A stretch of 64,000 nucleotides of DNA, taken from Paraburkholderia sp. (GTDB taxonomy: Bacteria; Pseudomonadota; Gammaproteobacteria; Burkholderiales; Burkholderiaceae). The notes beneath the pieces were generated by a model, which made no database searches, was not told the origin of the DNA, and worked only from the letters and a program-made list of their open reading frames with translations. Position numbers and translations under genes: made by a program. Where the stretch lies: assembly GCA_004322045.1 (NCBI GenBank), contig SCRN01000013.1, positions 62,001 through 126,000 of the forward strand, given 5' to 3'. Shown here piece by piece: positions 5,078-25,764 of the stretch; position 1 is the first letter of the stretch, and every line of letters begins with the position of its first letter.

Positions 5078-5755
5078 GTGGAATTTTGGTTGGATTCAAT
5101 TAACATGACGATTATCAAGCACGCCTCGGAGCTTGGTATATTAACTGGAGTTACCACTAATCCCGCGATATTGAGTAGATCGAGTGAGAAATTCGAGTGC
5201 GTGATCGAAAATCTTATCGCTTTTCAATCGGGGAAGGTCGCTGTTCAGGTTGTTGAGAATGAGTACGCATCAATAATCAAGCAAGCGAAGAAATTGGCCG
5301 CGATTAGCGATCGAATCGTGGTCAAGATTCCTGCGGTGGATGACGGTCTTCGGGCAATCGCGACGCTAGAGGGCGAGAATATTGCGACACTGGCAACAAC
5401 GATATTTGAGTCGCGGCAGATCGTTATGGCTTCGCTCTGCGGTGCTACTTATGCTGCTCCATATCTGAATAGAATCGAGATGTCGACGGGAGGTGCATTT
5501 GAAATATCAAAAAAATCTGAGAAGATAATTAGGACTTACGGCTTTAAGACCAGGATTCTGGCGGCGGCCGTCAAATCAGTCGAGCAATTCATGCGCTGTG
5601 CAGAACTCGGGGTATCTGCCGTGACAGTGTCTGATGATATCTATCACGCCTTGTTTGCCTCAAATGGAGATATTGTCTGTAGTCTCGAGAAGTTTGATCT
5701 TGCATGGGCCTCAAACGCTGGAATGAGGGAGTCGCAGTTTTTTGCTTTAGATTAG
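5078..5755 (+). CDS. Transaldolase / fructose-6-phosphate aldolase-like protein
   Basis: The product (225 residues from the GTG at 5078) shows the family motif GVTTNPAIL (about 24-32) and the Schiff-base lysine in RIVVKIPA (Lys83). Length fits the short fructose-6-phosphate aldolase type. An in-frame GTG at 5066 is possible, but 5078 is preferred. It gives the usual EFWLDSI beginning, lies just after the regulator's stop (5074-5076) and has GGAGG at 5068-5072 as ribosome-binding site. The gene is AT-rich like its partner. Coupling to a LuxR-type gene is unusual for central metabolism and suggests a role in making a sugar- or triose-derived precursor, which is inference. Confidence 0.8.
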   Translation: MEFWLDSINMTIIKHASELGILTGVTTNPAILSRSSEKFECVIENLIAFQSGKVAVQVVENEYASIIKQAKKLAAISDRIVVKIPAVDDGLRAIATLEGENIATLATTIFESRQIVMASLCGATYAAPYLNRIEMSTGGAFEISKKSEKIIRTYGFKTRILAAAVKSVEQFMRCAELGVSAVTVSDDIYHALFASNGDIVCSLEKFDLAWASNAGMRESQFFALD

Positions 5756-5763
5756 TCGTTTGT

Positions 5764-8286: not shown

Positions 8287-9527
8287 TGGCCCGTTCCTTG
8301 GCCGTGAGCCGCATCGCCTCGTTCGGCATGCTCTTTGAGCAGATCGCGGCCGATGATGAGCTGTTGCACTTCCGTTGCGCCTTCATAGATACGCAGCGCG
8401 CGAATCTCGCGATAGAGCGTCTCGACGGGCGTGCCGCTGCAAACGCCTTGACCGCCCCACAATTGGACGGCCGCGTCGATGACGCGCTGCGCGCCTTCGC
8501 TCGCATGCCACTTCGCCATGGCGGCTTCGCGCGTGACGCGTTTGCCTTGGTCGCGCATCCACGCCGCACGGTAGACGAGCAGGGCGGCCGAATCGATCGT
8601 GAGCGCCATTTCCGCGAGCTTCGCTTGAGTGAGCTGAAAATCGCCGAGCGTTTGCCCGAACATGCGGCGCGTCGCTGCGCGATGCAGCCCCTGTGCCAAC
8701 GCATGCCGCGCGAAGCCGAGCGATGCAGCAGCCACCGACGTACGAAAAATGTCGAGCGTGCGCATCGCCAGCTTGAATCCTTCTCCGGCAGCGCCTAGCC
8801 GCTGCGCTTTCGGCACGCGCGCGCCATCGAAGCGCAGGCGTGCGAGCGGATGCGGGGCGATGACGTCGATGCGCTCGGCGATCGTGAAGCCGAGCGTGTC
8901 CGCATCGACGACGAATGCGCTGATGCCGCGCGCGCCAGGCGCCTCGCCGGTGCGCGCGAATACGACGTAGAAATCGGCTATGCCGCCGTTCGAGATCCAC
9001 GTCTTCTCGCCATCGAGCACATAGGCATCGCCATCGTCTCGCGCTGCCAGCGAAAGTGCCGCGACGTCCGACCCGGCATCGGGCTCCGAGAGCGCAAATG
9101 CCGCGATGGCATGGCCGCTCGCGACGCGCGGCAAGTAGCGGCGTTTTTGTTCCTCCGTGCCCGCGAGCGAGATCGCCCCCGAACCGAGCCCCTGCATGGC
9201 CAGCGCAAAATCGGCCAGACCCGAATGGCGCGCGAGCGTTTCGCGCAATAGGCAGACGGCGCGCGTATCGATCGTATCGCCGTGGCCGCCGTATGCCGCG
9301 CCGCCCACGCCATAGCGTAGCCAACCGTCTTCCCCAAGCGCGCGTACGAGGCGGCGGCACTGTTCGTCTACGCTCGCTCTGCCGTTCGGCCCGCTTTGCA
9401 ACGGCTCCGCGTGCGTGAGGAGCGACTGGTGCGAATCGCACCATGCCTGCAGATCGACGGCCAGCTTGCGATGCCGGTCCTCGAAGAAAGGCCAATCGAG
9501 CATGTCCGGCCACTGAGCTCTGGCCAT
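8283..9527 (-). CDS. Acyl-CoA dehydrogenase family protein
   Basis: The 414-residue protein is full length for the family. It has [13 protein letters not shown], the flavin-binding [13 protein letters not shown] and a C-terminal segment [17 protein letters not shown] that follows the IYEGT-type catalytic-loop pattern. It oxidises an acyl-CoA with FAD and passes electrons to ETF. In aerobic 2-aminobenzoyl-CoA metabolism the dearomatised ring goes through beta-oxidation-like steps, and this enzyme would do one of them. Only one base separates it from the enoyl-CoA hydratase gene. Confidence 0.85.
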
Positions 9528-10972: not shown

Positions 10973-11760
10973 ATTACTTCTCCGCCGGAGATGGAAATCG
11001 ATTGGCCCGTCACCGAGGCCGATTCGGGCATGACGAGCCACAGCACCGCATGAGCGACTTCGTCGGGTGTAATGAAGCGCCGTTGCGGGTTGGCGCGTTG
11101 CAGCGCCGTGCGTGCTTCGCTTGCGCTTCGCCCGGTTTTGGCGACGACCCGATCGAGTGAGGTCTGTAACAAGGGTGTTTCCGTGTAGCCCGGGCAGACA
11201 GCGTTGACGGTGACACCCGTGGTGGCCGTTTCGAGCGCGAGGGATTTGGTGAGCCCGATGACGCCGTGCTTCGCGGCGCAATAGGCCGTCACGTACGGAT
11301 AGCCGATTTGACCTGCGGTGCTCGCGACATTCACGACGCGGCCGAAACCGCGCTCGATCATGGAGGGCAACGCGGCTTGCGTGCAGAGGAATACGCCGGT
11401 CAAGTTGACTTCGAGCATGCGTTGCCACAGCCCGAGGTCTGTCTTGGCGAACGGGGCAGCTTGCGCCTGCCCGGCATTGTTGACGAGCACGTCGACCGGA
11501 CCGAGCGCATCGCGCGCCGATGCGAAAGCTTCGTCCACGGCGTCGGGGTTAGTGACATCGACGGTGGCGCAATGCACTGCATACGATGCGCCGAGCGCCG
11601 TGCGTTGTGCTTCGAGCTTGGCCGAATCGCGGCCCATGAGGGTTACGCGAGCACCCGCATCGACGAGCGCTTTCGCGATCGCCGCCCCGATACCGCTGCC
11701 GCCGCCTGTGACGACAGCGTGCAGATCGTCGAGCGAATGCACCATCGGCTTCGCACTCAT
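10969..11760 (-). CDS. Short-chain dehydrogenase/reductase (3-hydroxyacyl-CoA dehydrogenase-like)
   Basis: The 263-residue protein has the NAD(P)-binding TGGGSGIG (18-25), NNAG (94-97) and the catalytic YCAAK (160-164). Start ATG 11760 overlaps the monooxygenase stop (ATGA). It probably oxidises a hydroxyacyl-CoA formed after hydration, feeding a beta-oxidation-like ring-cleavage route. Similarity to acetoacetyl-CoA/3-hydroxybutyrate-type SDRs is visible, but the natural substrate is inferred from the operon. Confidence 0.85.
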
Positions 11761-14108
11761 TGCGCCACCTCTGCGGGTGTCGCTGCTGCGACATGAGCCG
11801 CGCGTTCGCGCTCGAAGTTGCGTTCGAGCTGGACTTTTGCGGCCGCGTATTGCTTCGGCCAGGCGACATCGAAGAAGCCGATTTTGGCGGCTTCGGTGAG
11901 CGTCCAGGCCGGATTGGCCAGATGGGGCCGGGCCACGGCACAAAGATCGGCGCGGCCCGCGGCGATGATGCTGTTGACGTGATCCGCTTCGGAAATTGCG
12001 CCCACCGCGATCGTGGCGATGCCCGCTTCGTTGCGGATACGATCCGAGAACGGCGTTTGAAACATGCGACCGTAGACGGGTTTTTCCGCTTTGCTGACTT
12101 GTCCTGACGACACGTCGATCATGTCCGCGCCGGCCGCTTTGAACGCGCGCGCGATTTCGACGGCATCGTCGGGCGTCGTTCCACCCTCCACCCAATCGTT
12201 CGCAGAGATACGCACCGAAATCGGTTTGCCTTGCGGCCAGACCTTCCGAATGGCGTTGAACACTTGCAGCGGATAGCGCAGCCGGTTTTCGAGCGAGCCG
12301 CCGTATTCGTCGGTGCGGTGGTTCGTGAGCGGGGAGATGAAGCTAGACAAGAAGTAGCCGTGCGCGCAGTGCAGCTCGAGCCAATCGAAGCCGGCTTCCT
12401 CGGCGCGTTGGGCGGCGCGTATGAACTGGGCTTCGATCTCACGCAGTTCGTCGTGGCGGGCCGCATGCGACCACTGGCTGATCCCGGCGAGATATTGTTG
12501 CGGCGAAGCCGAAACGATCGGCCAATTGCCCTCGGGCAATGGTTGATCGATGCCCTCCCAACTGACGCGCGTCGATGCTTTCGCGCCGGCGTGGCCTAGT
12601 TGCATGCCGATTTTCGCATCGCTCATGCGATGGACGAATTCGACGATGCGGCGCCAAGCATGCAGATGCTCGTCGGTGTACATACCGGGGCAGCCGGGTG
12701 TGATGCGCCCTTCCGGCGAAACGCAGGTCATTTCCGTCATGACGAGCCCGGCCCCGCCCATCGCACGTGCGCCGAGATGCGTCAGGTGGTAATCGCCTAC
12801 CGTGCCGTCCACGGCCAAGTATTGCGCCATGGGCGAAACGACGACGCGATTCTTGAGCTTGATGTCGCGCACGGAGAACGGCGTGAACATCGGGGGAATC
12901 GATTGCTTCGTATCGCGCGCGCCTTCGACGCCGGCCTTCTGAGCAAGCCATTGCTCGAATGAGCGTACATAGTGCGGATCGCGTTGACGCAAGTTCTCAT
13001 GCGAGATGCGTTGCGAGCGCGTGAGCAGCGAATAGGCGAACTGCTCCGGATCGAACGAGGCGTAGCGGCTGACGTGCTCGAACCATTCCGTCGAATTGCG
13101 TGCGGCGTTTTGGATACGCAGCACGTCGACGCTGCGCGTTTCCGTGTAGTGGGCGAGGGCGGCGCGGAGATCGTGCGGGTGGGCATCGATGCTGTCGGCT
13201 AGTGCGATTGCGTCTTCGAGCGCGAGCTTCGTTCCGGACCCGATCGAGAAGTGCGCCGTATGCGCAGCGTCGCCCATGAGTACCACGGGGGTTGTGCCGG
13301 CGTTCGCACGTGGCCTGTAATGCACCCACTGTTCGTTGACGACGCGCGGGAACCGAATCCATTGCGCGGAGCCGCGTAGATGAGCGGCGTTCGACATCAA
13401 CGGGTGGCCGTCTAGGTACTTCGCGAATAATCGTTCGCAGAAAGCGATGCTGTCTTCTTTGTTCATTTCGTCGAGGCCAGCCGCGCGCCAGACGCGCTCG
13501 GGCGCTTCGACGATGAAGGTCGAGGTGTCTTGATCGAAACGGTAGGCGTGCGCTTGAAACCAACCCCATTCGGTTTTTTCGAAGGCGAAGGTGAAGGCGT
13601 CGAATAGCTTGTGGGTGCCTAGCCAGACGAAACGGCAATCGCGCACGTCGATATCGGGGCGATACGTCGCGGCGTATTTCTGACGGATGGGGCTATTGGC
13701 GCCGTCGCAGGCGATGATGAGATCGGCGTCGTAATCCTCGTCGTTCGTCACGTTGGTTTCGAAGACGAGCTTGACGCCGAGCGCTTCACAGCGTGCCTGA
13801 AGGATATTGAGCAGACGTTTGCGCCCGATGCCGCAGAATCCGTGGCCCGAGGAGCGGATGGTGCGTCCGCCGAAATGGACGTCGATGTCGTCCCAGTGGT
13901 TGAACGCATCGAGGATCATCTCGGCGCTCGGGGCATCGGCCGTGCATAGGTTTTCTAGCGTTTGGTCGGAGAAGACCACGCCCCAGCCGAAGGTGTCGTA
14001 GGGGCGATTCCGCTCGATGACGGAGACTTCGTGCGCCGGGTTGCGCAGTTTCATCAATAGGCCGAAGTAGAGCCCGGCGGGCCCGCCCCCGATGCAGACG
14101 ATGCGCAT
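11757..14108 (-). CDS. Bifunctional 2-aminobenzoyl-CoA monooxygenase/reductase (salicylyl-CoA 5-hydroxylase/oxidoreductase type)
   Basis: The 783-residue protein is a fusion. Residues 1 to about 380 are an FAD monooxygenase of the p-hydroxybenzoate hydroxylase class (GGGPAG at 7-12, GDAAH motif in [15 protein letters not shown]). Residues about 400-783 are an old-yellow-enzyme-like NADH:flavin oxidoreductase ([35 protein letters not shown]). This architecture is known for 2-aminobenzoyl-CoA monooxygenase/reductase of Azoarcus evansii, which hydroxylates and dearomatises the ring, and for salicylyl-CoA 5-hydroxylase homologues. A GAGGAGGCACC ribosome-binding site precedes the ATG. It is the first gene after the promoter. 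Confidence 0.9.
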
Positions 14109-15342: not shown

Positions 15343-16684
15343 CTAGCAGGCTGTTGAAATACCTCCCGCAGACGTCATCCAAGCGGGAGGGGTAAACCTT
15401 GAAACAAGGAATCGACCAACACTGAGAGCGAAGCGATGCGCGGAGCGGATGGCTACACCGAGACGATGTTCACGATGGCGAAGCTCGATGACTTCGTGCC
15501 GGCCAATCATCCGCTGCGGCCGATTCGCCTTTGGTTGAACGACGCTCTTAAGCGCATGGACGGCGTGTTCGCGCGCATGTACGAGAGCGACGCGAAAGAC
15601 GGCAGGCCGAGCATCGCGCCCGAGAAGCTGATTCGCGCGTTGTTGCTGCAAGTGCTGTATTCGATTCGCAGCGAGCGCATGCTGATGGAGCAAATCTCCT
15701 ACAACATGCTGTTTCGTTGGTTTGTCGGCTTGGCGATGGACGATGCAGTGTGGGACCACTCGACGTTCAGCAAGAACCGCGACCGACTGCTCGCGCACGA
15801 TGTCATAGTGGGTTTGTTCAACGAGACGGTGGAGACGGCGCATGCACGCGGTCATCTCTCGGGCGAGCACTTCCGCGTCGACGGCACACTGATTCAGGCG
15901 TGGGCGGGCCATAAAAGCTTCGTGCGCAAGAACAAATCCGACGACGATACGCCGCCCCAAGGAGGTGTTCGCCAGCGCGAGGATTGGCACGGCGAGAAGC
16001 GCAGCAACGAGACGCATGAATCGAGCAGCGACAGTCAGGCGAAGCTGTTCCGCAAGAGTCGCAATACCGGTGCGATGCTTTGCTGTATGGGGCACGTGCT
16101 CACGGACAACCGGCATGGTCTGGTGGTCAACGCGCAAGTGACGCAGGCCAACGGCACGGCCGAGCGAGATGCGGCGGCCGACATGCTTGCTGATGCGGCG
16201 CGGCTTGCCGAGGTGCCGATTTCGGTGGGGGCCGAAAAGAATTACGACACGGCCGGGTTTGTCGCGACGTGTCGCGCCAATCGCGTGACGCCGCATGTCG
16301 CGCAAAACGACGCGCGCGCAGGCGGCTCTGCCATTGACGGGCGCACGACACGTTGGGCGGGCTACACCGTCAGTCAGCGTAAGCGCAAATGTATCGAGCA
16401 AGTGTTCGGCTGGAGCAAGACGATTGGCCGGATTCGGAAGGTCATGTGTCGCGGGCGCGAGCGAGTCGAGCAGTTGTTTCTCCTGACGCAGGCGGCCTAC
16501 AACCTCACGCGCATGCGAACGCTCGCGGCGAAAGCGGCATAGAGGCGAAAGTCGGCGAGGAAATGACATCGAATCGGCCCGAATTAAGGAAATCCAGCAT
16601 CAAATCAACACCCCCAAATCGGCGCAGCAGCTCTTTGGGAAGCTACCGCCGCGCCACAAGGGGGATACTTCAACAGCCTGCTAG
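15343..16684 (+). mobile_element. IS5-family insertion sequence, complete, with CTAG target duplication
   Basis: The element spans 15347-16680 (1334 bases). Its ends read CAGGCTGTTGAA and the complement TTCAACAGCCTG, and each end is flanked by CTAG (15343-15346 and 16681-16684). This is the target duplication typical of IS5 relatives. It holds one transposase gene. The intact ends, duplication and ORF suggest fairly recent insertion, between a SnoaL-like gene and a porin remnant. Confidence 0.9.
15436..16542 (+). CDS. IS5-family transposase
   Basis: The 368-residue transposase has the IS5-group N-terminal domain (DDFVPANHPLRPIRLWLNDAL), the first catalytic aspartate region FRVDGTLIQAW, and the C-terminal YxxRxxxE-like segment KRKCIEQVFGWSKTIGRIRK. 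The frame is uninterrupted, so the element may be active. It sits alone inside a 1334-base element with matching inverted ends. Confidence 0.9.
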   Translation: MRGADGYTETMFTMAKLDDFVPANHPLRPIRLWLNDALKRMDGVFARMYESDAKDGRPSIAPEKLIRALLLQVLYSIRSERMLMEQISYNMLFRWFVGLAMDDAVWDHSTFSKNRDRLLAHDVIVGLFNETVETAHARGHLSGEHFRVDGTLIQAWAGHKSFVRKNKSDDDTPPQGGVRQREDWHGEKRSNETHESSSDSQAKLFRKSRNTGAMLCCMGHVLTDNRHGLVVNAQVTQANGTAERDAAADMLADAARLAEVPISVGAEKNYDTAGFVATCRANRVTPHVAQNDARAGGSAIDGRTTRWAGYTVSQRKRKCIEQVFGWSKTIGRIRKVMCRGRERVEQLFLLTQAAYNLTRMRTLAAKAA

Positions 16685-16857: not shown

Positions 16858-16912
16858 CGATCATATAGCGCCGGCCGTCGTAGGTGCTTTCCCTAGAGTT
16901 CGAGAGATGTGG

Positions 16913-16941
16913 TTGACGGCCGAATACGGGCCTCGTAAATT
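16913..16941 (+). promoter_or_regulatory. Sigma70-type promoter of the amide/nitrile operon
   Basis: TTGACG (16913-16918) and TAAATT (16936-16941) are separated by 17 bases. Transcription would begin near 16947, directly before two hairpins and a terminator, giving a leader of about 120 bases before the first gene. The sequence match is good; the start site is inferred. Confidence 0.65.
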
Positions 16942-16950
16942 TGCACCATC

Positions 16951-16991
16951 GATTGCCTGGTTTCAAGGGCAATCAGCGGCAACGATGCCGC
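16951..16991 (+). promoter_or_regulatory. Tandem leader hairpins, candidate ANTAR (AmiR) target
   Basis: Hairpin P1 (16951-16974) pairs GATTGCC with GGCAATC. Hairpin P2 (16976-16991) pairs GCGGC with GCCGC around the six-base loop AACGAT, which has A at position 1 and G at position 4, the known ANTAR-target loop signature. P1 as drawn has a loop of 8-10 bases rather than six, so it fits less well. The pair lies one base apart between a promoter and an intrinsic terminator, and the operon itself encodes an AmiR-like ANTAR protein. Confidence 0.55.
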
Positions 16992-17012
16992 GCTACATAT
17001 GGAAGGCTATGC

Positions 17013-17053
17013 AGCCCCCGAACTTGCGTACTACGCCAGTTCGGGGGCTTTTT
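17013..17053 (+). terminator. Intrinsic terminator in the leader of the amide/nitrile operon (attenuator)
   Basis: A perfect 12-base stem (17013-17024 with 17038-17049) encloses a short GCGTACTACGC inner hairpin and is followed at once by a run of T residues and then a second T-rich stretch. It lies only about 20 bases before the first gene's start, so without antitermination most transcripts should end here. It matches the role of the terminator in the Pseudomonas amiE leader, which AmiR overcomes. Confidence 0.85.
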
Positions 17054-17070
17054 GCTTTTGGAGAACAAAA

Positions 17071-17967
17071 TTGGAAATCAAGCAGCACGCTCCGGCCGAG
17101 CAGGGGATCACCGGCCCCGTCGTCGCTTGCATACAGATAGAGCCCCACGTCGGCGAAAAGCGAGAAAACGTCGAGCGTTCGGTTCGCTACATCGAAGAGG
17201 CGGCACGCAATGGCGCCTCCCTGGTGGTATTGCCGGAGCTAGCCAACACGGGGTACGTCTTTGCCGACAGGGATGAAGCGTTCGCGCTCTCGGAAGCATT
17301 ACCGGACGGCGTGACCACTCGGATTTGGGCGGATGCGGCACGACGGCTCGGGGTTCACATCGTTGCGGGCATTGCCGAACGGGCGGACAACCGGCTCTTC
17401 AATTCGGCCGTTTTTATCGGTCCGTCAGGAACGATCGGGACGTACCGAAAACTCCATCTTTGGAACGACGAAAACCGTTTCTTCGAACCCGGCAATCTCG
17501 GCGTGCCGGTCTTCGATACCCCCTTGGGGCGGATCTCGATCGCCATCTGCTACGACGGATGGTTTCCCGAGGTCTATCGGTTGGCTGCCACGCAAGGTGC
17601 CGACATCGTCTGCGTGCCGACGAACTGGGTTCCGATGTCGGGACAACCGGGCGATCGAACGGCGATGGCCACGATACTCACGATGGCCGCGGCGCATAGC
17701 AATGGTCTGATGATCGCTTGTGCGAATCGGATCGGCACGGAGCGCGGCCAGCCCTTTATCGGCCAGAGCTTGATCGTGGGCGCCGACGGATGGCCCATGG
17801 CCGGCCCGTCCAGTTGCGACCGCGAGGAAATCCTGTACGCCGCACTCGATCTGGAGCGGGCGCGGTCCGGGCGCACGCTGAACGCATTCAATCACGTACT
17901 GCGCGACCGGCGCTCCGACGTGTACGACCCAATGCTGGGCACTGGCTGGACTTCCTCGCCCGCATAA
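17071..17967 (+). CDS. Nitrilase-superfamily carbon-nitrogen hydrolase (amidohydrolase)
   Basis: The catalytic triad is visible: Glu in VVLPELANTGY, Lys in TYRKLHLWNDENRF, Cys in IAICYDGWFPE. The enzyme hydrolyses a non-peptide C-N bond in an amide, carbamoyl compound or nitrile. An open frame extends up to an ATG at 16999, but that start would lie before the leader terminator. The TTG at 17071 with GGAG at 17060-17063 is preferred and gives 298 residues, normal for the family. It is first in an operon with a Liv-type transporter, an amidase and AmiCR, so it probably acts on an imported amide. The exact substrate is unknown. Confidence 0.85.
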   Translation: MEIKQHAPAEQGITGPVVACIQIEPHVGEKRENVERSVRYIEEAARNGASLVVLPELANTGYVFADRDEAFALSEALPDGVTTRIWADAARRLGVHIVAGIAERADNRLFNSAVFIGPSGTIGTYRKLHLWNDENRFFEPGNLGVPVFDTPLGRISIAICYDGWFPEVYRLAATQGADIVCVPTNWVPMSGQPGDRTAMATILTMAAAHSNGLMIACANRIGTERGQPFIGQSLIVGADGWPMAGPSSCDREEILYAALDLERARSGRTLNAFNHVLRDRRSDVYDPMLGTGWTSSPA

Positions 17968-18027: not shown

Positions 18028-19200
18028 ATGAAACCGTCCAAACTACAGATTCTCATCGGCGCCGTCAGCATGGTCGTGGCTGCGCTGGCGTCGAGCACCG
18101 CTTCATGCGCCGCGGAACCCATCAAGATCGGCGTTGCCGTGGGTTTGTCCGGCGCCAACAGCGTGGTCGCGCCTGCAGTCGTGCAGTCGTCGCAGCTTGC
18201 CGTCGACGAAATCAACGCGGCAGGCGGGATTCTCGGGCGCAAAGTTCAGCTCGAGATCGCGGACGACGCGTCCGGCGCCGTCGGCGCGCAAAAGGCGTAC
18301 GACACGCTGGTCTTCCAGAAGAACGTCGATGCCGTCATTTCGATGGAAACCAGTGCGGCCCGCAACGCGGCGCTGCCCATCGTGGCCCGGGGAAAGAAGC
18401 CGTTCATCTATACGTCGTTTTACGAGGGCAAGTCTTGCAGCCCATGGATGTACGTCAACGGTTGGGTGCCGGACCAGCAGGTTGCGCCGGTGGTCGACTA
18501 CTTCGAGAAAAGCAAAGGCGCGAAGACCTTTTATCTCGTCGGCAACGATTATGCCTTTGGGCGCGGCATGCTCGATTTCACGGCGAAATACATCACGCTG
18601 CACGGCGGAACGGTGATCGGCGAAGAATACTTGCCGATCGACGGCACGGACTGGACGCCGATCCTCTCGAAGATCCGCTCGGCTCACCCGGACGCGCTGA
18701 TCAGCGCGACAGCCGGCGGCGCGCCCAACGTCGCCTTGGCCAAGCAATTGAAGGCGTCTGGGCTGACGCTGCCCTACGGCAACCTGGCCATCGACGAAGG
18801 TACTGCGAAGAGCATGGGGGACGTCGCCACGGGCATCTATATGTCCGGCTCCTACCTGACGAGTATCGGTACGCCTGAGAACGGTAAGTTTCTCGATGCG
18901 ATGCGCAAACGCTTCGGCAAGAATATGAAGACACCGAATGAACTTTCGGAGCCGCAATACGAAGCGTTTTTCCTCTACAAGGCGGCGGTCGAAAAGGCCG
19001 GCACGACGGATCCCGATAAGGTCATCAAGGCACTCGGGCAGGTGTCGTTCGACGGGCCGCGCGGTCCTGTGAAAATGGACGAGAGCCGCCACACGCCGCT
19101 TGCGATGCGGCTCGGGCAGATTCAGACGGACGGCTCGGTGAAGATCCTTCAGACATTCACGAATGTCGACCCGGGCAAGCAATGCCCGAATATCAAGTAA
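18028..19200 (+). CDS. ABC transporter periplasmic substrate-binding protein (amide/branched-chain amino acid type)
   Basis: The 390-residue protein begins with a signal peptide (MKPSKLQILIGAVSMVVAALASSTASCAA) and continues with a type I periplasmic binding fold (IKIGVAVGLSGANSVVAPA, AVDEINAAGGILGRKV). It resembles the Liv and amide/urea-binding group and is a homologue of the AmiC encoded later in the operon. It should bind the amide substrate in the periplasm and deliver it to the LivH/LivM permeases. A ribosome-binding GAAGGAGAC precedes the ATG. Confidence 0.9.
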   Translation: MKPSKLQILIGAVSMVVAALASSTASCAAEPIKIGVAVGLSGANSVVAPAVVQSSQLAVDEINAAGGILGRKVQLEIADDASGAVGAQKAYDTLVFQKNVDAVISMETSAARNAALPIVARGKKPFIYTSFYEGKSCSPWMYVNGWVPDQQVAPVVDYFEKSKGAKTFYLVGNDYAFGRGMLDFTAKYITLHGGTVIGEEYLPIDGTDWTPILSKIRSAHPDALISATAGGAPNVALAKQLKASGLTLPYGNLAIDEGTAKSMGDVATGIYMSGSYLTSIGTPENGKFLDAMRKRFGKNMKTPNELSEPQYEAFFLYKAAVEKAGTTDPDKVIKALGQVSFDGPRGPVKMDESRHTPLAMRLGQIQTDGSVKILQTFTNVDPGKQCPNIK

Positions 19201-19272: not shown

Positions 19273-20106
19273 ATGGTTTTGGCACTGGACGTTTTAACGA
19301 CCGCGGCGATCCTTTTTATCGTGACTGCCGGGTTGATGGTAATTTTCGGCGTGATGAAAATCGTCAACTTCGCGCATGGCGCTCTGCTGACGATGGGCGC
19401 CTATGCAAGCTTCGTTGTGACGCAATTGAAGCTCGATCCTTGGGTCGGGCTGCCGCTCGCACTGATCGTCGGCGTGGCAGTCGGCATGCTGGTCGAACAA
19501 GTGATCGTGCGGCCTCTGTATAAGCGCCCGCTCGATGCGATTCTCGCCACATGGGGGCTCGGGATCGTGATCGGCCAGCTCATCGTCATGGCGTTCGGTC
19601 GCGAGGTGCAGTTTGTCGAAACACCGCTGAAGGGGGCCATTTCGGTCGCAGGCATCGAATATTCGGCCTACCGCTTGCTGTTGGTTCCGATCGCCGCGGG
19701 CTTGTGCTTGCTTTTGACCGCGCTGCTTTCCGGCACACGCTTCGGCGTCAAGACCCGCGCGGTAATCATGAACGAGGACCTGGCACGCGGGCTCGGAATT
19801 CATTCCGGCCGGATTCGCTTCATCACCTTCAGCCTCGGTGCCGCGCTCGGCTCCCTGGCCGGAGCGTTGATGACACCGCTATCCAGCGTCGAGCCGAACA
19901 TGGGACTGGCTTATCTGATCAATGCTTTCATGCTGGTGATGGTGGCGGGGTATTCGATGGTGAGCCTGCTGGCCACGTGCCTGGTATTCGGCGCATGCCA
20001 AGTGCTAGTCAGTACCTTCGTCAGCCCGGTATTGGGCGGCCTGACCATCGCTGTGCTCGCTGCTTTTACGTTGCGTATCCGTCCGCAGGGGTTCTCTCAT
20101 GGCTAA
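19273..20106 (+). CDS. LivH-type ABC transporter permease
   Basis: The 277-residue hydrophobic protein has the LivH pattern: LMVIFGVMKIVNFAHGALLTMGAYASF near the N terminus and the cytoplasmic RTRAVIMNEDLARGLGIHSGRIRFITF-like EAA loop. It forms one half of the inner-membrane channel for the imported amide. It overlaps the downstream fusion gene by eight bases. Spacing from the binding-protein gene is 72 bases with a GGAGACGGAC ribosome-binding region. Confidence 0.9.
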   Translation: MVLALDVLTTAAILFIVTAGLMVIFGVMKIVNFAHGALLTMGAYASFVVTQLKLDPWVGLPLALIVGVAVGMLVEQVIVRPLYKRPLDAILATWGLGIVIGQLIVMAFGREVQFVETPLKGAISVAGIEYSAYRLLLVPIAAGLCLLLTALLSGTRFGVKTRAVIMNEDLARGLGIHSGRIRFITFSLGAALGSLAGALMTPLSSVEPNMGLAYLINAFMLVMVAGYSMVSLLATCLVFGACQVLVSTFVSPVLGGLTIAVLAAFTLRIRPQGFSHG

Positions 20107-21946
20107 GGCTACTGCGTCGCCGGGCAATGTCGGCATCGGACAGCGCGCGGCCGACAATCGGATGCGGCACATGCGCGGATTGCTCCTGGTCGGCGGGCCG
20201 GCGATCGCGCTTCTGATCGCCGGTCCATTCCTGTTCGGCACGTATCTGCTGAACGTCCTGATTCAAGCGTTCTTCTTCTCGATCGTTGCGGTGACCGTGG
20301 ATGTGCTCTGGGGCTATACGGGTTATCTGACGTTCGGTCAATCGGCCTTTTTCGGCATCGGCGCTTACGCGGCGGGTCTCGTCTTCACACATGGCGGGTT
20401 TTCGCCGGGCTACGTCTTGCTGGGACTCGGCGTGGCGATCGCGGCGGCCGCGGCCGTCGCCGCAGTGCTCGGCTGGCTGTCCTTCTACCGCGGCGCATCG
20501 CCTTTCTTCGCGACTGTCATGTCGCTCGTGCTGCCGATCGTGCTGTCCCAATTGCTGTTGTCGGGCGGCGAGTGGACGGGTTCGAGCTCAGGCCTGACGG
20601 GGTATGAAACCTTCGACCTGTCGCTTCAGGCATGGTATGGAATCGCGGGTGCGGGCTTGCTGATCATCGCAACGCTAGCCTGGTTCTTCGTACGCAGCGA
20701 CGGCGGCCGCACGTTGGTGGCGATTCGCGACAACGAGTCGCGCTGCCTGTACCTCGGTATCGATACGTCGCTCGTCAAGATCGTCTTGTTGATCGTGGCG
20801 GCGATCGTTGCCGGTGTCGCGGGGTTTGGTTACGGCGCGTTCAGCGGGGTGGTCGCGCCGGAACTCACCGGGTTCGTTCTCGGCACGCAATTGATCATCT
20901 GGGTGGCGCTCGGCGGCCGAGGCACCCTGTGGGGGCCGGTCGTCGGCGCGCTCTTGATCAATGTCGTGACCTCGTACCTCAGCGGCAGCTTGCCGTTCGC
21001 GTGGCAATTGATTCTCGGCGCTGCGTTCGTGGCCGTCATCATCTTGCTTCCACAGGGGCTTGTGCCGTTGCTCGCGAGGCCATTCCATAGGCTGGCTGGT
21101 GCCGGCACACAACCGATCCTGGTCGAGCGAGATGTGCAAGCGCGGTCCGCGCAGGCGGCCTCGGAACCTGCGCTGCAAATGAACGACGTCGCAAAGCATT
21201 TCGGCAGCCTGAAGGTGCTGCAGGGTATCGGTCTGCATGCCGATGCCGGCGAGTTGGTCGGTTTGATCGGCCCGAACGGCGCGGGCAAGACCACATTGAT
21301 GCGTTGCATGAGCGACGGCGCCGAACGATCCGCGGGACGAGTCGTGCTGTGCGGCAACGATATCAAGCAACTCCCGCCGGACCGCGGCGTGCGGTTCGGG
21401 TTGGGCCGCAAATTCCAGAATGCCAATATCTTCGATAGCCTGACGGTTGCGGAATGCCTGCGGATCGCGGGTACGCTTATCGAGCAGCCTTCACTGTTTC
21501 GGCGCTCGAACTCGCTGGCGCTACCGCCCTATGCGCTCGAAGTCGTTCGCGCGACGGGCCTCGACCGGAAGCTCGGCACCGTTGCGAAGGATCTGTCGCA
21601 CGGTGAGCAACAAGCGCTAGAGCTCGCAATGGTACTGGCGCTGGAACCGCGCATCGTTCTGCTCGACGAACCGACAGCGGGGTTGACCAAGACCGAACGC
21701 ACTCAGATCGGGAGGGTCCTTGCCTCGCTGGCCCATCGATATCGGCTCTGCTGTCTGCTCGTCGAACACGATCTCGATTTTGTCGCCGAGATCGCCACGC
21801 GGATCGTGGTCCTTCATCACGGTCGCATCGTGATGCAAGGCAGCTTCGATGAAGTCGTCAATTCGGAGCTCGTCAAAACAATCTATGCGGGGACGCCGCA
21901 GTCTGCGGCGGGCCACGGATCCGGCAATCACGGGGAGCCATCATGA
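20099..21946 (+). CDS. LivM permease-LivG ATPase fusion protein
   Basis: The 615-residue protein joins two functions normally encoded separately. Residues about 25-330 are a multi-spanning LivM permease (VDVLWGYTGYLTFGQSAFFGIGAYAAG). Residues about 360-600 are a LivG-type ATPase with Walker A GPNGAGKTT, the signature LSHGEQQ (one residue off the usual LSGGQ) and Walker B IVLLDEP. It provides one channel half and one ATP-binding half. It overlaps livF by four bases. Such fusions occur in some Burkholderiales and rhizobia, but the two-gene form is commoner. Confidence 0.9.
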   Translation: MAKATASPGNVGIGQRAADNRMRHMRGLLLVGGPAIALLIAGPFLFGTYLLNVLIQAFFFSIVAVTVDVLWGYTGYLTFGQSAFFGIGAYAAGLVFTHGGFSPGYVLLGLGVAIAAAAAVAAVLGWLSFYRGASPFFATVMSLVLPIVLSQLLLSGGEWTGSSSGLTGYETFDLSLQAWYGIAGAGLLIIATLAWFFVRSDGGRTLVAIRDNESRCLYLGIDTSLVKIVLLIVAAIVAGVAGFGYGAFSGVVAPELTGFVLGTQLIIWVALGGRGTLWGPVVGALLINVVTSYLSGSLPFAWQLILGAAFVAVIILLPQGLVPLLARPFHRLAGAGTQPILVERDVQARSAQAASEPALQMNDVAKHFGSLKVLQGIGLHADAGELVGLIGPNGAGKTTLMRCMSDGAERSAGRVVLCGNDIKQLPPDRGVRFGLGRKFQNANIFDSLTVAECLRIAGTLIEQPSLFRRSNSLALPPYALEVVRATGLDRKLGTVAKDLSHGEQQALELAMVLALEPRIVLLDEPTAGLTKTERTQIGRVLASLAHRYRLCCLLVEHDLDFVAEIATRIVVLHHGRIVMQGSFDEVVNSELVKTIYAGTPQSAAGHGSGNHGEPS

Positions 21947-22650
21947 GCGCTATCGCATTGAACTTGCAGGACGTGACCAGCGGATACAAGGCCTCGATCG
22001 TGCTGCGCAAGCTATCGATGACGGTGTCGGGCGGCGAGGCCGTCGCATTGCTCGGCAAGAACGGCATGGGCAAATCGACCTTGCTCAAGACGATCATGGG
22101 CTATCTGCCGAAGAAGACCGGGGCGATCCAGGTGAACGGACTCGACATCACTCGTGCACCGTCGCACCAGATCGCGCGGGCCGGCATTGCCTATGCGCCC
22201 CAGGAGCACGCGCTGTTTCAGGACCTCACCATCCGCGACAACCTGCGGCTCGGGCTGCCGAAGGTATCCGTCTTCGACGAGCGCTTCGCGGAAATCGAGC
22301 CGATATTTCCGGTGTTCAAGAGTCGCCTCAAGCAGTACGCCGGAACACTCTCCGGCGGCGAACAGAAGATGCTGCTAGTTGCCAGAGCGTTGATGATGCG
22401 GCCCTCGGTCATCCTGCTCGATGAAATCACGGAAGGCCTGCAACCTTCGGTCATCGATCGTCTTGCGCAAGCGCTGCTGTGGGAACGCAACCGCCGCGGC
22501 ACGGCGCTCCTGCTCGTCGAACAGCACGTTCCGTTTGCCCTCGAGGTCGCGGACCGCTACGCCATCCTGAAGCAAGGCGAGATCGTCGACCACGGCGACG
22601 CGAAGGGTGAAGGCGCGGCGGAATCGATCTTCGGTCACTTGCGCGTCTGA
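21943..22650 (+). CDS. LivF-type ABC transporter ATP-binding protein
   Basis: The 235-residue ATPase has Walker A GKNGMGKST, signature LSGGEQK and Walker B VILLDEI. The last residue replaces the usual DEP, as seen in many LivF proteins (DEITEGL). It pairs with the ATPase half of the preceding fusion. ATGA overlap with that gene implies coupled translation. Confidence 0.9.
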   Translation: MSAIALNLQDVTSGYKASIVLRKLSMTVSGGEAVALLGKNGMGKSTLLKTIMGYLPKKTGAIQVNGLDITRAPSHQIARAGIAYAPQEHALFQDLTIRDNLRLGLPKVSVFDERFAEIEPIFPVFKSRLKQYAGTLSGGEQKMLLVARALMMRPSVILLDEITEGLQPSVIDRLAQALLWERNRRGTALLLVEQHVPFALEVADRYAILKQGEIVDHGDAKGEGAAESIFGHLRV

Positions 22651-22677: not shown

Positions 22678-23961
22678 ATGATTGCCAATTCTCTTTATCA
22701 GCCCGTCTCGGGATTGAAACTCGCGCTTGGAGCCGGTGACGTTCCACGTGAGCGCGGCGCCATGGTGCTCGACTCGCTCGCGCGCATCGACGAAGTCGAT
22801 CCTCGAATCAACGCGATGACTGCCGTGATACGGCGCGAGGCGGCGATGGCGAACGCCGCGGTTGCGTCGGGGCCTTTGGCCGGTATTCCGGTTGCGGTGA
22901 AAGACATCTACGACACCCAAAATTTGTCGACGAGTTACGGGTCGCCGATATATGCCGGACATCAGCCCAAATCCGATGCGGCCATCGTCACGCTGTTGCG
23001 CAGGAACGGCGCGATCATCGTCGGTAAGACGACAACCAGCGAGTTCGCCTATATGGCACCGACTGTTACGCGCAATCCGTGCGACATGGAGCGAACGCCC
23101 GGGGGATCGTCGTCGGGATCCGCTGCCGCCGTGGCAGCCGGAATGGTACCGTTCGCGATCGGCTCGCAGACGGGCGGCTCGACCATCCGTCCCGCGTCGT
23201 TTTGCGGGATCGCCGGCTATAAGCCCACGTTTGGATTGCTATCGACGGTCGGTATGAAATGCTTCTCGTGGTCGTTCGACACGGTAGGCCTTTTCGCCGC
23301 GGGCGTGCTCGACGTGGCCTACTTGGCTCAGGCCTTGTCGGGGCGCCAACTCGCGGTCGGCGGTGTGGGCGACATGCCAGCGTTTGGCATTCCGGAAAGC
23401 TACCCATGGACGAAGGCATCCGCAAATGCGAGCGCCGTGCTGGATGTCGCTATTGCAGCGATCGAAGGGGCGGGCGGTCGTGTGAAGCGGATTCGCTTCG
23501 ATTCTTGGATGGCCGATTTGATCGACGCGCACGACACGATTCAAAGCTACGAGGCGTGGCGCGCGTTGGGATACGAGTACGATCATCGTCGAAACGACTT
23601 GTCGCCCATCCTTGCGGGATTCATGGATCGGGCGGGCTCGGTGGACACGGCGACATACGCGAAGGCGTGCGCCTTGATGGGGCATGCCAAGGATAGGCTC
23701 GCGCGATTGTTCGAGGGTGTCACCGCGCTCCTGACACCAAGCGCGCCCGATGAGGCGCCGGTGGGATTCGATTCGACGGGCGACCCCTCATTCAATCGGA
23801 ATTGGACGCTGCTCGGATGTCCATGCGTCAACGTCCCCGGATTGCACGGCGAACGAGGGGGGCCGATCGGCATGCAGATCATCGGCCGGCCGTGGGACGA
23901 CGCACGATGCCTGAGTGCCGCTGTATTCGCCGAACGCGCGATTGCAGCGTATCGTTCTTGA
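22678..23961 (+). CDS. Amidase signature family amidohydrolase
   Basis: The 427-residue enzyme has the Ser-Ser-Lys triad pattern: Lys in [12 protein letters not shown], and the glycine/serine-rich signature [14 protein letters not shown] followed by [14 protein letters not shown]. It hydrolyses a carboxamide to acid and ammonia. With the nitrilase-family enzyme it gives the operon two different amide hydrolases, suggesting a substrate with two amide-like bonds or a two-step route. Substrate not identifiable from sequence. Confidence 0.88.
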
Positions 23962-23977
23962 ATGCGGGAGTTGCTTC

Positions 23978-25147
23978 ATGACTAAGGAAAGCCAACCTCC
24001 GAGCAAGGGGCGCGACGAGCAATGGCGCATCGGCATTCTGTATTCGCGAGCCGGCGTGACCTCGGTAACCGAATCGGAGCACTTCTTCGGCACCGTTCTC
24101 GCGATCGAGGAAATCAATGCGGCGGGCGGCGTCGCGGGACGCCTGCTCGATCCGGTCGTCTACGATCCCAAGGGCGAGGCGGACGAATATCGCCGCCTCG
24201 CCACGCTCATGCTGCAGGAAGACGATGTAACGGTCATTTTCGGGTGTTCGACTTCGTCGAGCCGGAAGGCCGTGCTACCGGTGATCGAGCGCAACAACGC
24301 GTTATTGTGGTATTGCTCGATCTACGAGGGATTCGAGTATTCGCCAAACGTGATCTACACCGGCGCGGTGCCCAATCAAAACGGCATGCAACTCGCTGCA
24401 TGGCTGCTGCGCAACGTCGGGCGACGGTTTTTCCTGGTCGGTGCCGATTACATCTATCCGCGCGAATCGAACCGTATCATTCGAGACATCGTGGAAGACC
24501 ATGGAGGTGAAATTGTCGACGAAGTCTACCTGCCGAGCGATGCTGATCCGGCGTCGCTGAAATCCGTCATCGACGAGATCGAATCGGTCGGCCCGGATGT
24601 TGTTTTTTCGACGCTGATCGGTCGCGGGGCGCGGACCTTCTACAAGTTGTACCGGGAGCGGGGCTTCGATCCGACGCGCTATCCCATCGCCAGTCTGACC
24701 ATGACCGAAGGCGAGATTCGCATGATCGGCCCGGAACTTTGCAGCGGGCATATCGTTTCCGCTAGCTATGTCAATACGCTGGACAACGAGAGCAATCGCC
24801 ACTACTTGGAAGCATGGCGCACGCGATTCGGAGACGAGCCGGCCAGCATGTGGTCCGAGATGGCTTACAACCAAGTGCATCTATTCGCCCGGGCGCTTGC
24901 GCGGGCGCAAACGCTCGATACGGCGAGATTGGTCGAAGCCGTTCATGAGGTGGAATTCGATTCGCCGGAAGGCCTGCTTAGGATCGATCCCGGCAACAAC
25001 CACGCTGTCTTGACGCCGCGCATTGCGATTTGCAGATCGGACGGCAGGTTCGATGTCGTATGGGAGAGCCGCGGGCCCGTCAAACCGGATCCCTATCTAA
25101 CCGCGTACGGCCTAGCCGAATTCTGGCTTGACGGGGAACGTTCATGA
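23978..25147 (+). CDS. amiC: AmiC-like amide-sensing negative regulator
   Basis: The 389-residue protein is a type I binding-protein fold without a signal peptide (WRIGILYSRAGVTSVTESEHFFGTVLAIEEINAAGGVAGR), as in cytoplasmic AmiC of Pseudomonas. AmiC sequesters AmiR until an amide inducer binds. The ATG at 23978, with GGGAG just upstream, is preferred to the longer frame from 23915, which overlaps the amidase. The downstream amiR gene overlaps it by four bases. Confidence 0.88.
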   Translation: MTKESQPPSKGRDEQWRIGILYSRAGVTSVTESEHFFGTVLAIEEINAAGGVAGRLLDPVVYDPKGEADEYRRLATLMLQEDDVTVIFGCSTSSSRKAVLPVIERNNALLWYCSIYEGFEYSPNVIYTGAVPNQNGMQLAAWLLRNVGRRFFLVGADYIYPRESNRIIRDIVEDHGGEIVDEVYLPSDADPASLKSVIDEIESVGPDVVFSTLIGRGARTFYKLYRERGFDPTRYPIASLTMTEGEIRMIGPELCSGHIVSASYVNTLDNESNRHYLEAWRTRFGDEPASMWSEMAYNQVHLFARALARAQTLDTARLVEAVHEVEFDSPEGLLRIDPGNNHAVLTPRIAICRSDGRFDVVWESRGPVKPDPYLTAYGLAEFWLDGERS

Positions 25148-25764
25148 CCACGAGCGCGCGTCGTTTATTCGATGATCTGCGCTCGCTGCGCGTCGCCGTC
25201 ATCCATCCGCCGGGCGACGACCGAAGCGTCTTGGAGGAGCAGTTGCGCCGGATCGGCTGCCCGGTCCGCGCCATTTGGCCGTTTCCTTCTCAGTTGCCGG
25301 CGGATGCCGACGTCATATTTTTTCTGGTGGGACCGGAGCTTCGATGCGCTGGCAACTGGTGCGCGGCCGATACGAACGCGACGCTGATCGCCTTGTCCGA
25401 CTACGAGAATCCCACCGCCCTGAAAATGCTCGTGGACACGCAGGCGCAGGGTGTGATCACGAAGCCGTACCGTTCCAGCGGGATCCTGAGCACGCTCGTG
25501 CTCGCCCGGGCCTCGTCGGGCTACCAGCAACGGCTGCAAAACAAGATCGGCAAGCTGGAGGAGGCGATCAAGGCGCGGCGCCATGTCGAAAAGGCCGTGC
25601 GTATCCTGATGGAGGCGCAGCGGCTTACCGAGAACGAAGCCTATGAACACATGCGCTCCCGCGCGACGGGATTGCGTGTCACCGTGGGCGAGATCGCGAC
25701 GATGGTGATCGACGCGTACGAGGCAATCGAAAAGCTTGGACTGGGGAAGGCACCGAAGCTTTGA
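25144..25764 (+). CDS. amiR: AmiR-like ANTAR-domain antitermination regulator
   Basis: The 206-residue protein has an N-terminal receiver-like domain (LRVAVIHPPGDDRSVLEEQLRRIGCPV) without an obvious phosphorylation set, a coiled-coil around 125-145, and a C-terminal ANTAR domain (about 145-200, AVRILMEAQRLTENEAYEHMRSRA). ANTAR proteins bind paired RNA hairpins and let RNA polymerase pass a terminator. Such hairpins and a terminator lie before the operon's first gene, at 16951-17053. The gene overlaps amiC by four bases, the usual sensor-antiterminator pair. Confidence 0.9.
   Translation: MTTSARRLFDDLRSLRVAVIHPPGDDRSVLEEQLRRIGCPVRAIWPFPSQLPADADVIFFLVGPELRCAGNWCAADTNATLIALSDYENPTALKMLVDTQAQGVITKPYRSSGILSTLVLARASSGYQQRLQNKIGKLEEAIKARRHVEKAVRILMEAQRLTENEAYEHMRSRATGLRVTVGEIATMVIDAYEAIEKLGLGKAPKL

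Follow-up and report, generated by a model that had tools for sequence, protein, structure and literature searches.

A candidate AmiR antitermination leader ahead of a nitrogen-scavenging operon in Paraburkholderia

In the window analyzed here, a stretch of 64,000 nucleotides from Paraburkholderia sp. (assembly GCA_004322045.1, contig SCRN01000013.1), a leader of about 158 bases lies ahead of an eight-gene operon. According to Pfam and NCBIfam, the operon encodes a hydrolase, an ABC transporter, an amidase, AmiC and AmiR (Table 1). A preliminary description of the locus had listed a transporter, two hydrolases and, as the product of the last gene, an ANTAR protein, and all of these were recovered: the hydrolases match PF00795 and PF01425, the ABC genes lie between them, and the last protein carries AmiR_N and ANTAR domains, with P. 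aeruginosa AmiR (1qo0) as its best solved relative. The genes amiC and amiR, the last two of the operon, are adjacent and overlap by 4 nt; for amiC we chose the ATG start of Table 1, while the homology searches took 23972-25144. The transporter comprises a binding protein, two permease and two ATPase domains and is of the urea/amide/branched-chain type. As every Urt name stayed below its NCBIfam cut-off, annotation does not fix the transported compound.

Table 1. Features of the leader and the operon, in window positions
Feature	Position	Strand	Evidence and remarks
TAGGTGCTTTCCCTA motif upstream of promoter	16881..16895	+	its TTTCCCT 18 nt upstream of -35
Sigma-70-type promoter TTGACG-17-TAAATT	16913..16941	+	promoter scan
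5'-terminal stem-loop (P1 of the preliminary description), 8-nt loop, not ANTAR	16951..16974	+	folding, covariation in 19 leaders
Upstream ANTAR hairpin P1 (P2 of the preliminary description), GCGGC-AACGAU-GCCGC, A1/G4	16976..16991	+	folding, covariation
13-nt linker, P1 to P2	16992..17004	+	leader comparison
Antiterminator hairpin P2, GGC-UAUGCA-GCC or GGCU-AUGC-AGCC	17005..17016	+	3' arm common with terminator
Intrinsic terminator, 12-bp stem 17013-17024/17038-17049, inner helix, T-run	17013..17053	+	folding, covariation
GGAG ribosome-binding site	17060..17063	+	sequence; precedes TTG start at 17071
Carbon-nitrogen hydrolase (nitrilase superfamily)	17071..17967	+	PF00795 2.7e-58
Substrate-binding protein, urea/amide ABC type	18028..19200	+	PF13458; UrtA-like below cut-off
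ABC permease, UrtB-like below cut-off	19273..20106	+	Pfam/NCBIfam
ABC permease-ATPase fusion, UrtC-UrtD-like below cut-off	20099..21946	+	Pfam/NCBIfam
ABC ATPase, UrtE-like below cut-off	21943..22650	+	Pfam/NCBIfam
Amidase-signature hydrolase	22678..23961	+	PF01425; nearest solved relative malonamidase E2, E 9.1e-93
AmiC-like ligand sensor	23978..25147	+	PF13433 1.5e-125; P. aeruginosa AmiC 1pea/1qnl E 2.3e-88
AmiR, AmiR_N pseudo-receiver and ANTAR	25144..25764	+	PF21332 1.9e-35, PF03861 2.3e-12; 1qo0 E 2e-26

The first gene starts with a TTG codon; in relatives, too, GGAG or a similar sequence stands ahead of the start. The ATG at 16999 shares the frame of this gene, and that frame runs through the terminator; automatic annotation may hence set the start too far upstream and so hide the leader. 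Further upstream, an IS5-family element (15343-16684) with an open transposase frame (15436-16542) lies about 230 nt from the promoter and is bounded by 25-nt terminal inverted repeats (15343-15367/16660-16684) that are 88% complementary. Beyond it, a 783-aa protein with an FAD-binding and an NADH:flavin oxidoreductase domain (PF01494, PF00724) is encoded on the minus strand at 11757-14108.

The genome that contains the window has two ANTAR genes, the operon's amiR and one receiver-ANTAR gene (locus L157). The latter adjoins genes for an NMT1-like sensor and a molybdopterin oxidoreductase, and we regard it together with the sensor gene as probably a nasT-nasS pair. Close AmiR relatives (at least 77% identity) occur in 4 of 11 genomes of the genus, the present one included. 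In another locus (L161, G008:C15), a second AmiC-AmiR pair with 83-85% identity was found; within 12.5 kb around this second pair, no match to the hydrolase, the transporter or the leader was seen.

Upstream of the operon, the promoter put forward in the preliminary description was the sole sigma-70-type match in 601 bases on both strands, where shuffled sequences gave a mean of 0.3. Folding of 16941-17070 yielded -58.2 kcal/mol (z = -5.04), which none of 200 shuffles equaled. The best fold contains both hairpins that had been noted at first, together with the 12-bp terminator stem and its T tract, and places an additional 4-bp helix inside the terminator loop. A simple terminator scan did not call the leader terminator, in our reading because this inner helix puts the hairpin beyond the scan's loop limit.

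ANTAR proteins are described as acting on two small hairpins, of which P1 is free and P2 overlaps the 5' side of a terminator, so that a held P2 shortens the terminator stem and parts it from the U-run (passages of PMC3369931, PMC3369936 and PMC8934654). For eutP and nasF, mutual exclusion of P2 and terminator is stated in passages of PMC3369931 and PMC3369936. The leader analyzed here holds three small hairpins, and only the third fits the place of P2: it shares 17013-17016, the terminator base, with the terminator, and the two structures are hence mutually exclusive. The 5' stem and the hairpin that follows it after 1 nt both coexist with the terminator. Most likely, therefore, the ANTAR pair consists of the hairpins at 16976-16991 (P1) and 17005-17016 (P2), the latter of which the first description had missed. 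Partition function calculations for growing transcripts gave P2 a probability of 0.10 with the transcript end at 17016, rising to 0.36 at 17018, 0.87 at 17020 and 0.98 at 17028. It then fell to 0.86 at 17040, 0.31 at 17044 and 0.01 at 17046 and was 0 from 17048 on. P2 thus forms and later yields as the transcript grows, in the order of events that co-transcriptional switching requires.

The pair proposed at first, 16951-16974 with 16976-16991, would leave 17005-17016 as a mere part of the terminator. We rejected it as the ANTAR target and consider it very improbable, although both hairpins are stable and conserved and covariation in 19 leaders supports the 5' stem. Neither hairpin touches the terminator, and they are spaced by 1 nt, in contrast to the 5-12 nt given for E. 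faecalis eut leaders in a passage of PMC3369931. Moreover, the loop of the 5' stem, already described as longer than six bases and in fact of 8 nt, varies in length and sequence among leaders and lacks the A1/G4 consensus pattern, and some alphaproteobacterial leaders (L084, L093, L096 and L098) offer only a small stem within 16 nt at this place. What stands of the first assignment is a covarying 5' stem and an ANTAR hairpin with the A1/G4 hexaloop AACGAU; the stem lacks an ANTAR loop and lies away from the terminator, and the hexaloop hairpin is the upstream member of the pair, with no terminator overlap. Likewise, gene order, homology and leader conservation strongly favor AmiC/AmiR antitermination of the operon, but not the first choice of hairpins. 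With 16976-16991 and 17005-17016 as the ANTAR pair, the 5' stem may be a message-stabilizing or spacing element. Of 73 leaders with sufficient length for the test, 64 have this stem at z < -1.5. In 19 leaders that we chose, all from the Burkholderia side, six of its eight pairs changed on both sides and 94.7% of cells were paired, compared with 25.4-63.2% in slid registers; 19 and 89 of 500 shuffles reached two of the five measures.

Our comparison set comprised 81 loci, i.e., the window and 80 hydrolase relatives kept of 351 found. A leader precedes the hydrolase gene in 74 of them, and for 71 of these AmiR is encoded in the examined stretch. Of the other three, L034 and L045 are cut off by the end of their contigs, and in L081 amiR, on the opposite strand, runs across the border of the stretch. 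No AmiR was found in the examined stretches of the seven leaderless loci (L066, L067, L073, L074, L079, L082 and L085), some of which are short (3.9 kb for L074); an AmiR-like gene occurs elsewhere in the genomes of L066 and L067 and none in those of L082 and L085. The AmiC-AmiR genes lie downstream of the transporter genes in 58 loci and in the window, and upstream in 12 loci, where the leader stands between amiR and the hydrolase gene. The place of AmiC-AmiR hence varies while the leader stays before the hydrolase, which ties the leader to the first gene rather than to the position of amiR. Among five loci that we scanned (L027, L053, L062, L069 and L094), an asparaginase-family gene (PF00710/PF17763) replaces the amidase, so relatives vary in their second hydrolase.

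For covariation analysis, the 74 leaders were thinned to 70 and then 55 by removal of identical and near-identical sequences (up to 3 differences). A joint MAFFT alignment of the 55 (A1) misplaces the terminator arm between leaders with 6- and 7-nt P2 loops; pairs were hence counted in two groups, A2 (26 leaders) and A3 (27 leaders), with L041 and L080 in neither. P1 and the terminator were paired in 92.6% of cells in A2, compared with 38.9-45.5% in slid registers, and in 96.7% in A3, compared with 32.1-49.1%; 8 and 7 pairs, respectively, changed on both sides. Their covariation score was well above that of the slid registers in both groups, with the caveat for A2 that a slide of -2 also gave 8 doubly changed pairs, at 40.4% of cells paired, and that 85 of 500 shuffles reached the count of further pair types. 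Paired hairpins are thus kept in homologous leaders, as the preliminary description had expected, with covariation in P1, the terminator and the 5' stem.

P2 is paired in 100% (A2) and 99.1% (A3) of cells, and one sequence among these 53 changed on both sides. In L068, the P2 5' arm, the shared arm and the terminator 3' arm read AGCU, AGCU and AGCU versus GGCU, AGCC and GGCU. Since P2 hardly varies, its pairing rests mainly on conservation, on the terminator overlap and on a control with other terminators. In this control, all 49 parsed leader terminators had a three-pair hairpin at their base, compared with 5 of 38 other terminators from these loci; the figures do not amount to a probability because the leaders are mutually related and the criteria (loop of 6 or 7) were set after the leaders had been seen, with 25 of the 74 leaders unparsed. 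The same control bears on the idea of a simple background attenuator that is always partly read through, in which the small hairpins merely stabilize the message. In general, 5'-terminal stem-loops commonly act as message stabilizers, which would suit such an attenuator. Nevertheless, P1 and the hairpin at the terminator base both reappear in leaders from Burkholderia relatives through to rhizobia, and the latter hairpin separates leader terminators from other terminators as above, so that we find a background attenuator scarcely credible.

The loops of the two ANTAR hairpins differ in how far they follow the known rule. AACGAU in the window's P1 has the six bases, the A1 and the G4 of the model in PMC3369931. 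Over the 74 leaders, the P1 loop has A1 in 72 and ends with T in 66, and its position 4 is G in 43, A in 27 and T in 4, i.e., P1 follows the rule loosely. The P2 loop has 6 nt in 43 leaders and 7 nt in 30, with one (L080) unparsed. It mostly keeps G4 (G in 58, A in 12 and T in 3 leaders, one unparsed) and begins with U in 72 of 74. The commonest P2 loops are TATGCA (31), TATGAAA (14) and TATAGAA (8). UAUGCA in the window has G4 and no A1; it thus departs from the published A1/G4 rule, and the leader is a variant rather than a strict dual A1/G4 hexaloop. L080 fits poorly, as its P2 would be GGGC-AAGUCC-GCCC, and the P2 loop of L081 is unlike that of other leaders. The linker between P1 and P2 has 7-12 nt in 64 leaders and 13-16 nt in the other 10 of the 74, the window with its 13 nt among the latter; for eutP, a passage of PMC3369931 reports that a 14-nt linker cut induction strongly.

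Linker length also bears on a different control of the terminator, by a small-molecule riboswitch or a leader peptide, with AmiR acting elsewhere. The ATG at 16999, in frame with the first gene, would suit a leader peptide, and the 5' stem and P1 could form an aptamer. Linkers of 7-16 nt do not keep the frame, and the leader peptide was rejected for this reason. For a riboswitch, Rfam gave no match at gathering score over the whole window and none that is plausible over the leader under relaxed settings. The catalogued RNAs that appeared over the leader (microRNA, CRISPR repeat and sok, at E up to 10) were far below their cut-offs and were discarded. As the presence of the leader also tracks that of AmiR, we judge control by riboswitch or leader peptide to be quite improbable.

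Upstream of the promoter, a TTWCCCT-type motif is kept in part of the Burkholderiales relatives. It occurs in 26 of the 74 leaders, 14-26 nt upstream of the -35 element (at 17-18 nt in 24 of them) and often within an imperfect AGG...CCT inverted repeat. The whole genome holds one copy with one mismatch allowed. The motif at 16881-16895 is possibly an activator site and thus a second layer of control.

Taken together, the locus very probably represents the leader of an AmiC/AmiR-controlled nitrogen-scavenging operon, with read-through predicted to depend on AmiR binding to P1 and P2. Following the P. aeruginosa system, we picture the switch as follows. RNA polymerase would start at the promoter at 16913-16941. 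Without inducer, AmiC would hold AmiR, the terminator at 17013-17053 would fold and transcription would stop. An amide-like ligand would cause AmiC to release AmiR, whose ANTAR domain might bind P1 and then hold P2. In this state, P2 would take the bottom four bases of the terminator 5' arm; the stem, thus shortened, would be drawn away from the U-run, and the polymerase could go on into the genes for the hydrolase, transporter, amidase, AmiC and AmiR. Amide-induced read-through, as first suggested, is a reasonable assumption, and the urea-type transporters here and urease in relatives make urea-like inducers also possible.

The covariance search that the preliminary description had called for turned out differently with Rfam, which had no match at gathering score, and with a model built from relatives. 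This model, R1, was made from A2, i.e., 26 leaders with the window among them. In the 6.0-Mb genome it found one strong copy (E 1.6e-22) and an opposite-strand echo of the same place (9.3e-4); further places at E 1.68 and 5.27 were rejected as targets, and in the receiver-ANTAR locus L157 nothing matched up to E 1. With stricter filters, R1 found matches at E <= 0.01 in 11 of 399 genomes of the order and in 15 of 398 of the phylum, the genomes G000 and G439 being in both sets. At E < 1e-6 there were 11 distinct leaders, including the window's, all in AmiC-AmiR loci: of the 10 others, nine have AmiR within their 3-kb locus, and in L138 it lies about 8 kb downstream. For matches between 1e-5 and 0.01, the 3-kb loci were devoid of AmiR; by eye, most of these matches were plain terminators or chance, L141 not being judged.

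Among the other AmiR loci searched, R1 matched at E < 0.001 in L168 (two places), L170, L173, L178 and L180 (three places), and more weakly in L174 (0.018) and L182 (0.029 and 0.1). Up to E 1, it found no match in L169 (which excludes L081's leader), L181 and L183. For the amiE genes of L171 and L172, the surrounding 4-kb loci contain no AmiR. In L168 (G439:C152:8800-18800), 23 nt separate the end of one leader (543-629) from a fused urease gamma-beta gene (652), which is followed by the gene for the urease alpha subunit (ureC after ureA-ureB, by Pfam). A second leader (9215-9303) precedes the gene for a urea-type binding protein that shares 68% identity over 210 residues with its counterpart in the window, and AmiC-AmiR lies between the two leaders. 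Judged from this arrangement, the L168 urease is apparently under ANTAR antitermination. On a Roseibium aggregatum plasmid (L180), R1 places at 1064-1158, 5561-5647 and 5662-5759 surround one AmiC-AmiR pair, with one leader before a cytosine permease gene and two in tandem before an urt operon. By eye, more distant AmiR loci keep this design with different loop letters, namely GGC-GACGAU-GCC in Roseibium, GGC-AAGGAU-GCC in Rhizobium johnstonii, GGC-UAUGUA-GCC in Aminobacter and R. leguminosarum and GGC-UGGCAA-GCC in Paracoccus yeei; the amiE leader of L170 has AGGC-AAUAAA-GCCU at the terminator base.

We class the leader as a variant of AmiC/AmiR antitermination. With the P. aeruginosa ami operon it shares the AmiC/AmiR pair (1pea, 1qo0) and, by the published description of the amiE leader, a leader terminator before the first hydrolase gene. 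The differences lie in the first enzyme, which falls into a different nitrilase-superfamily branch (73 bits, where the aliphatic amidase cut-off is 427), in the additional genes for a urea/amide-type ABC transporter and a second amidase, and in the P2 loop, which has U1/G4 here, whereas a passage of PMC3369931 describes the amiE P2 loop as A1/G4. The Enterococcus faecalis eutP/G/S/A leaders, the targets of EutV, likewise have two small hairpins, the second over the 5' side of the terminator (passages of PMC3369931 and PMC8934654). They differ in loop letters and linker and with respect to the extra 5' stem seen here, and EutV has a phosphorylated receiver in place of the AmiC-gated pseudo-receiver. 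Klebsiella oxytoca nasF (NasR) and NasST offer another ANTAR antitermination of a nitrogen operon (a passage of PMC3369936), albeit with another signal and sensor. Other AmiC-AmiR loci, with nitrilase, urt, formamidase or urease genes, occur on plasmids and chromosomes and have the same pair with different downstream enzymes.

As to earlier reports, passages of PMC3369931, the 2012 model, show that the P. aeruginosa amiE leader was used for AmiR's RNA target and name Burkholderia among the genomes with matches. Passages of PMC13209695 describe plasmid operons with amiE, amiC, amiR and ABC genes and do not mention leaders, and a passage of PMC8164766 extends ANTAR RNAs to actinobacteria. Among titles and the beginnings of abstracts, no paper names this operon or an ANTAR-controlled urease; the hit tables of PMC3369931 may already list this leader.

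We may speculate, at slightly less than even chances, that AmiC/AmiR antitermination is general for urea- and amide-scavenging operons of Pseudomonadota, with small multi-leader regulons in some genomes, a urease operon among the targets and a loop code of its own in this branch. Such a code, equally tentative, would read A-N-N-R-N-U in P1 and U-R-Y-G-N-A or a 7-nt form in P2, and, with the same reserve, the P2 5' arm would copy the 3' base of the terminator. If this is true, searches that need A1/G4 in both loops would miss much of the branch, and the loop code would be branch-specific, as distant AmiR loci differ again. The 74 leaders, with more in other AmiR loci, constitute a large comparative set for the RNA target of AmiR, and their comparison points to the likeliest place of P2 and to a relaxed A1 rule. 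The same switch stands before different nitrogen enzymes, apparently urease too.
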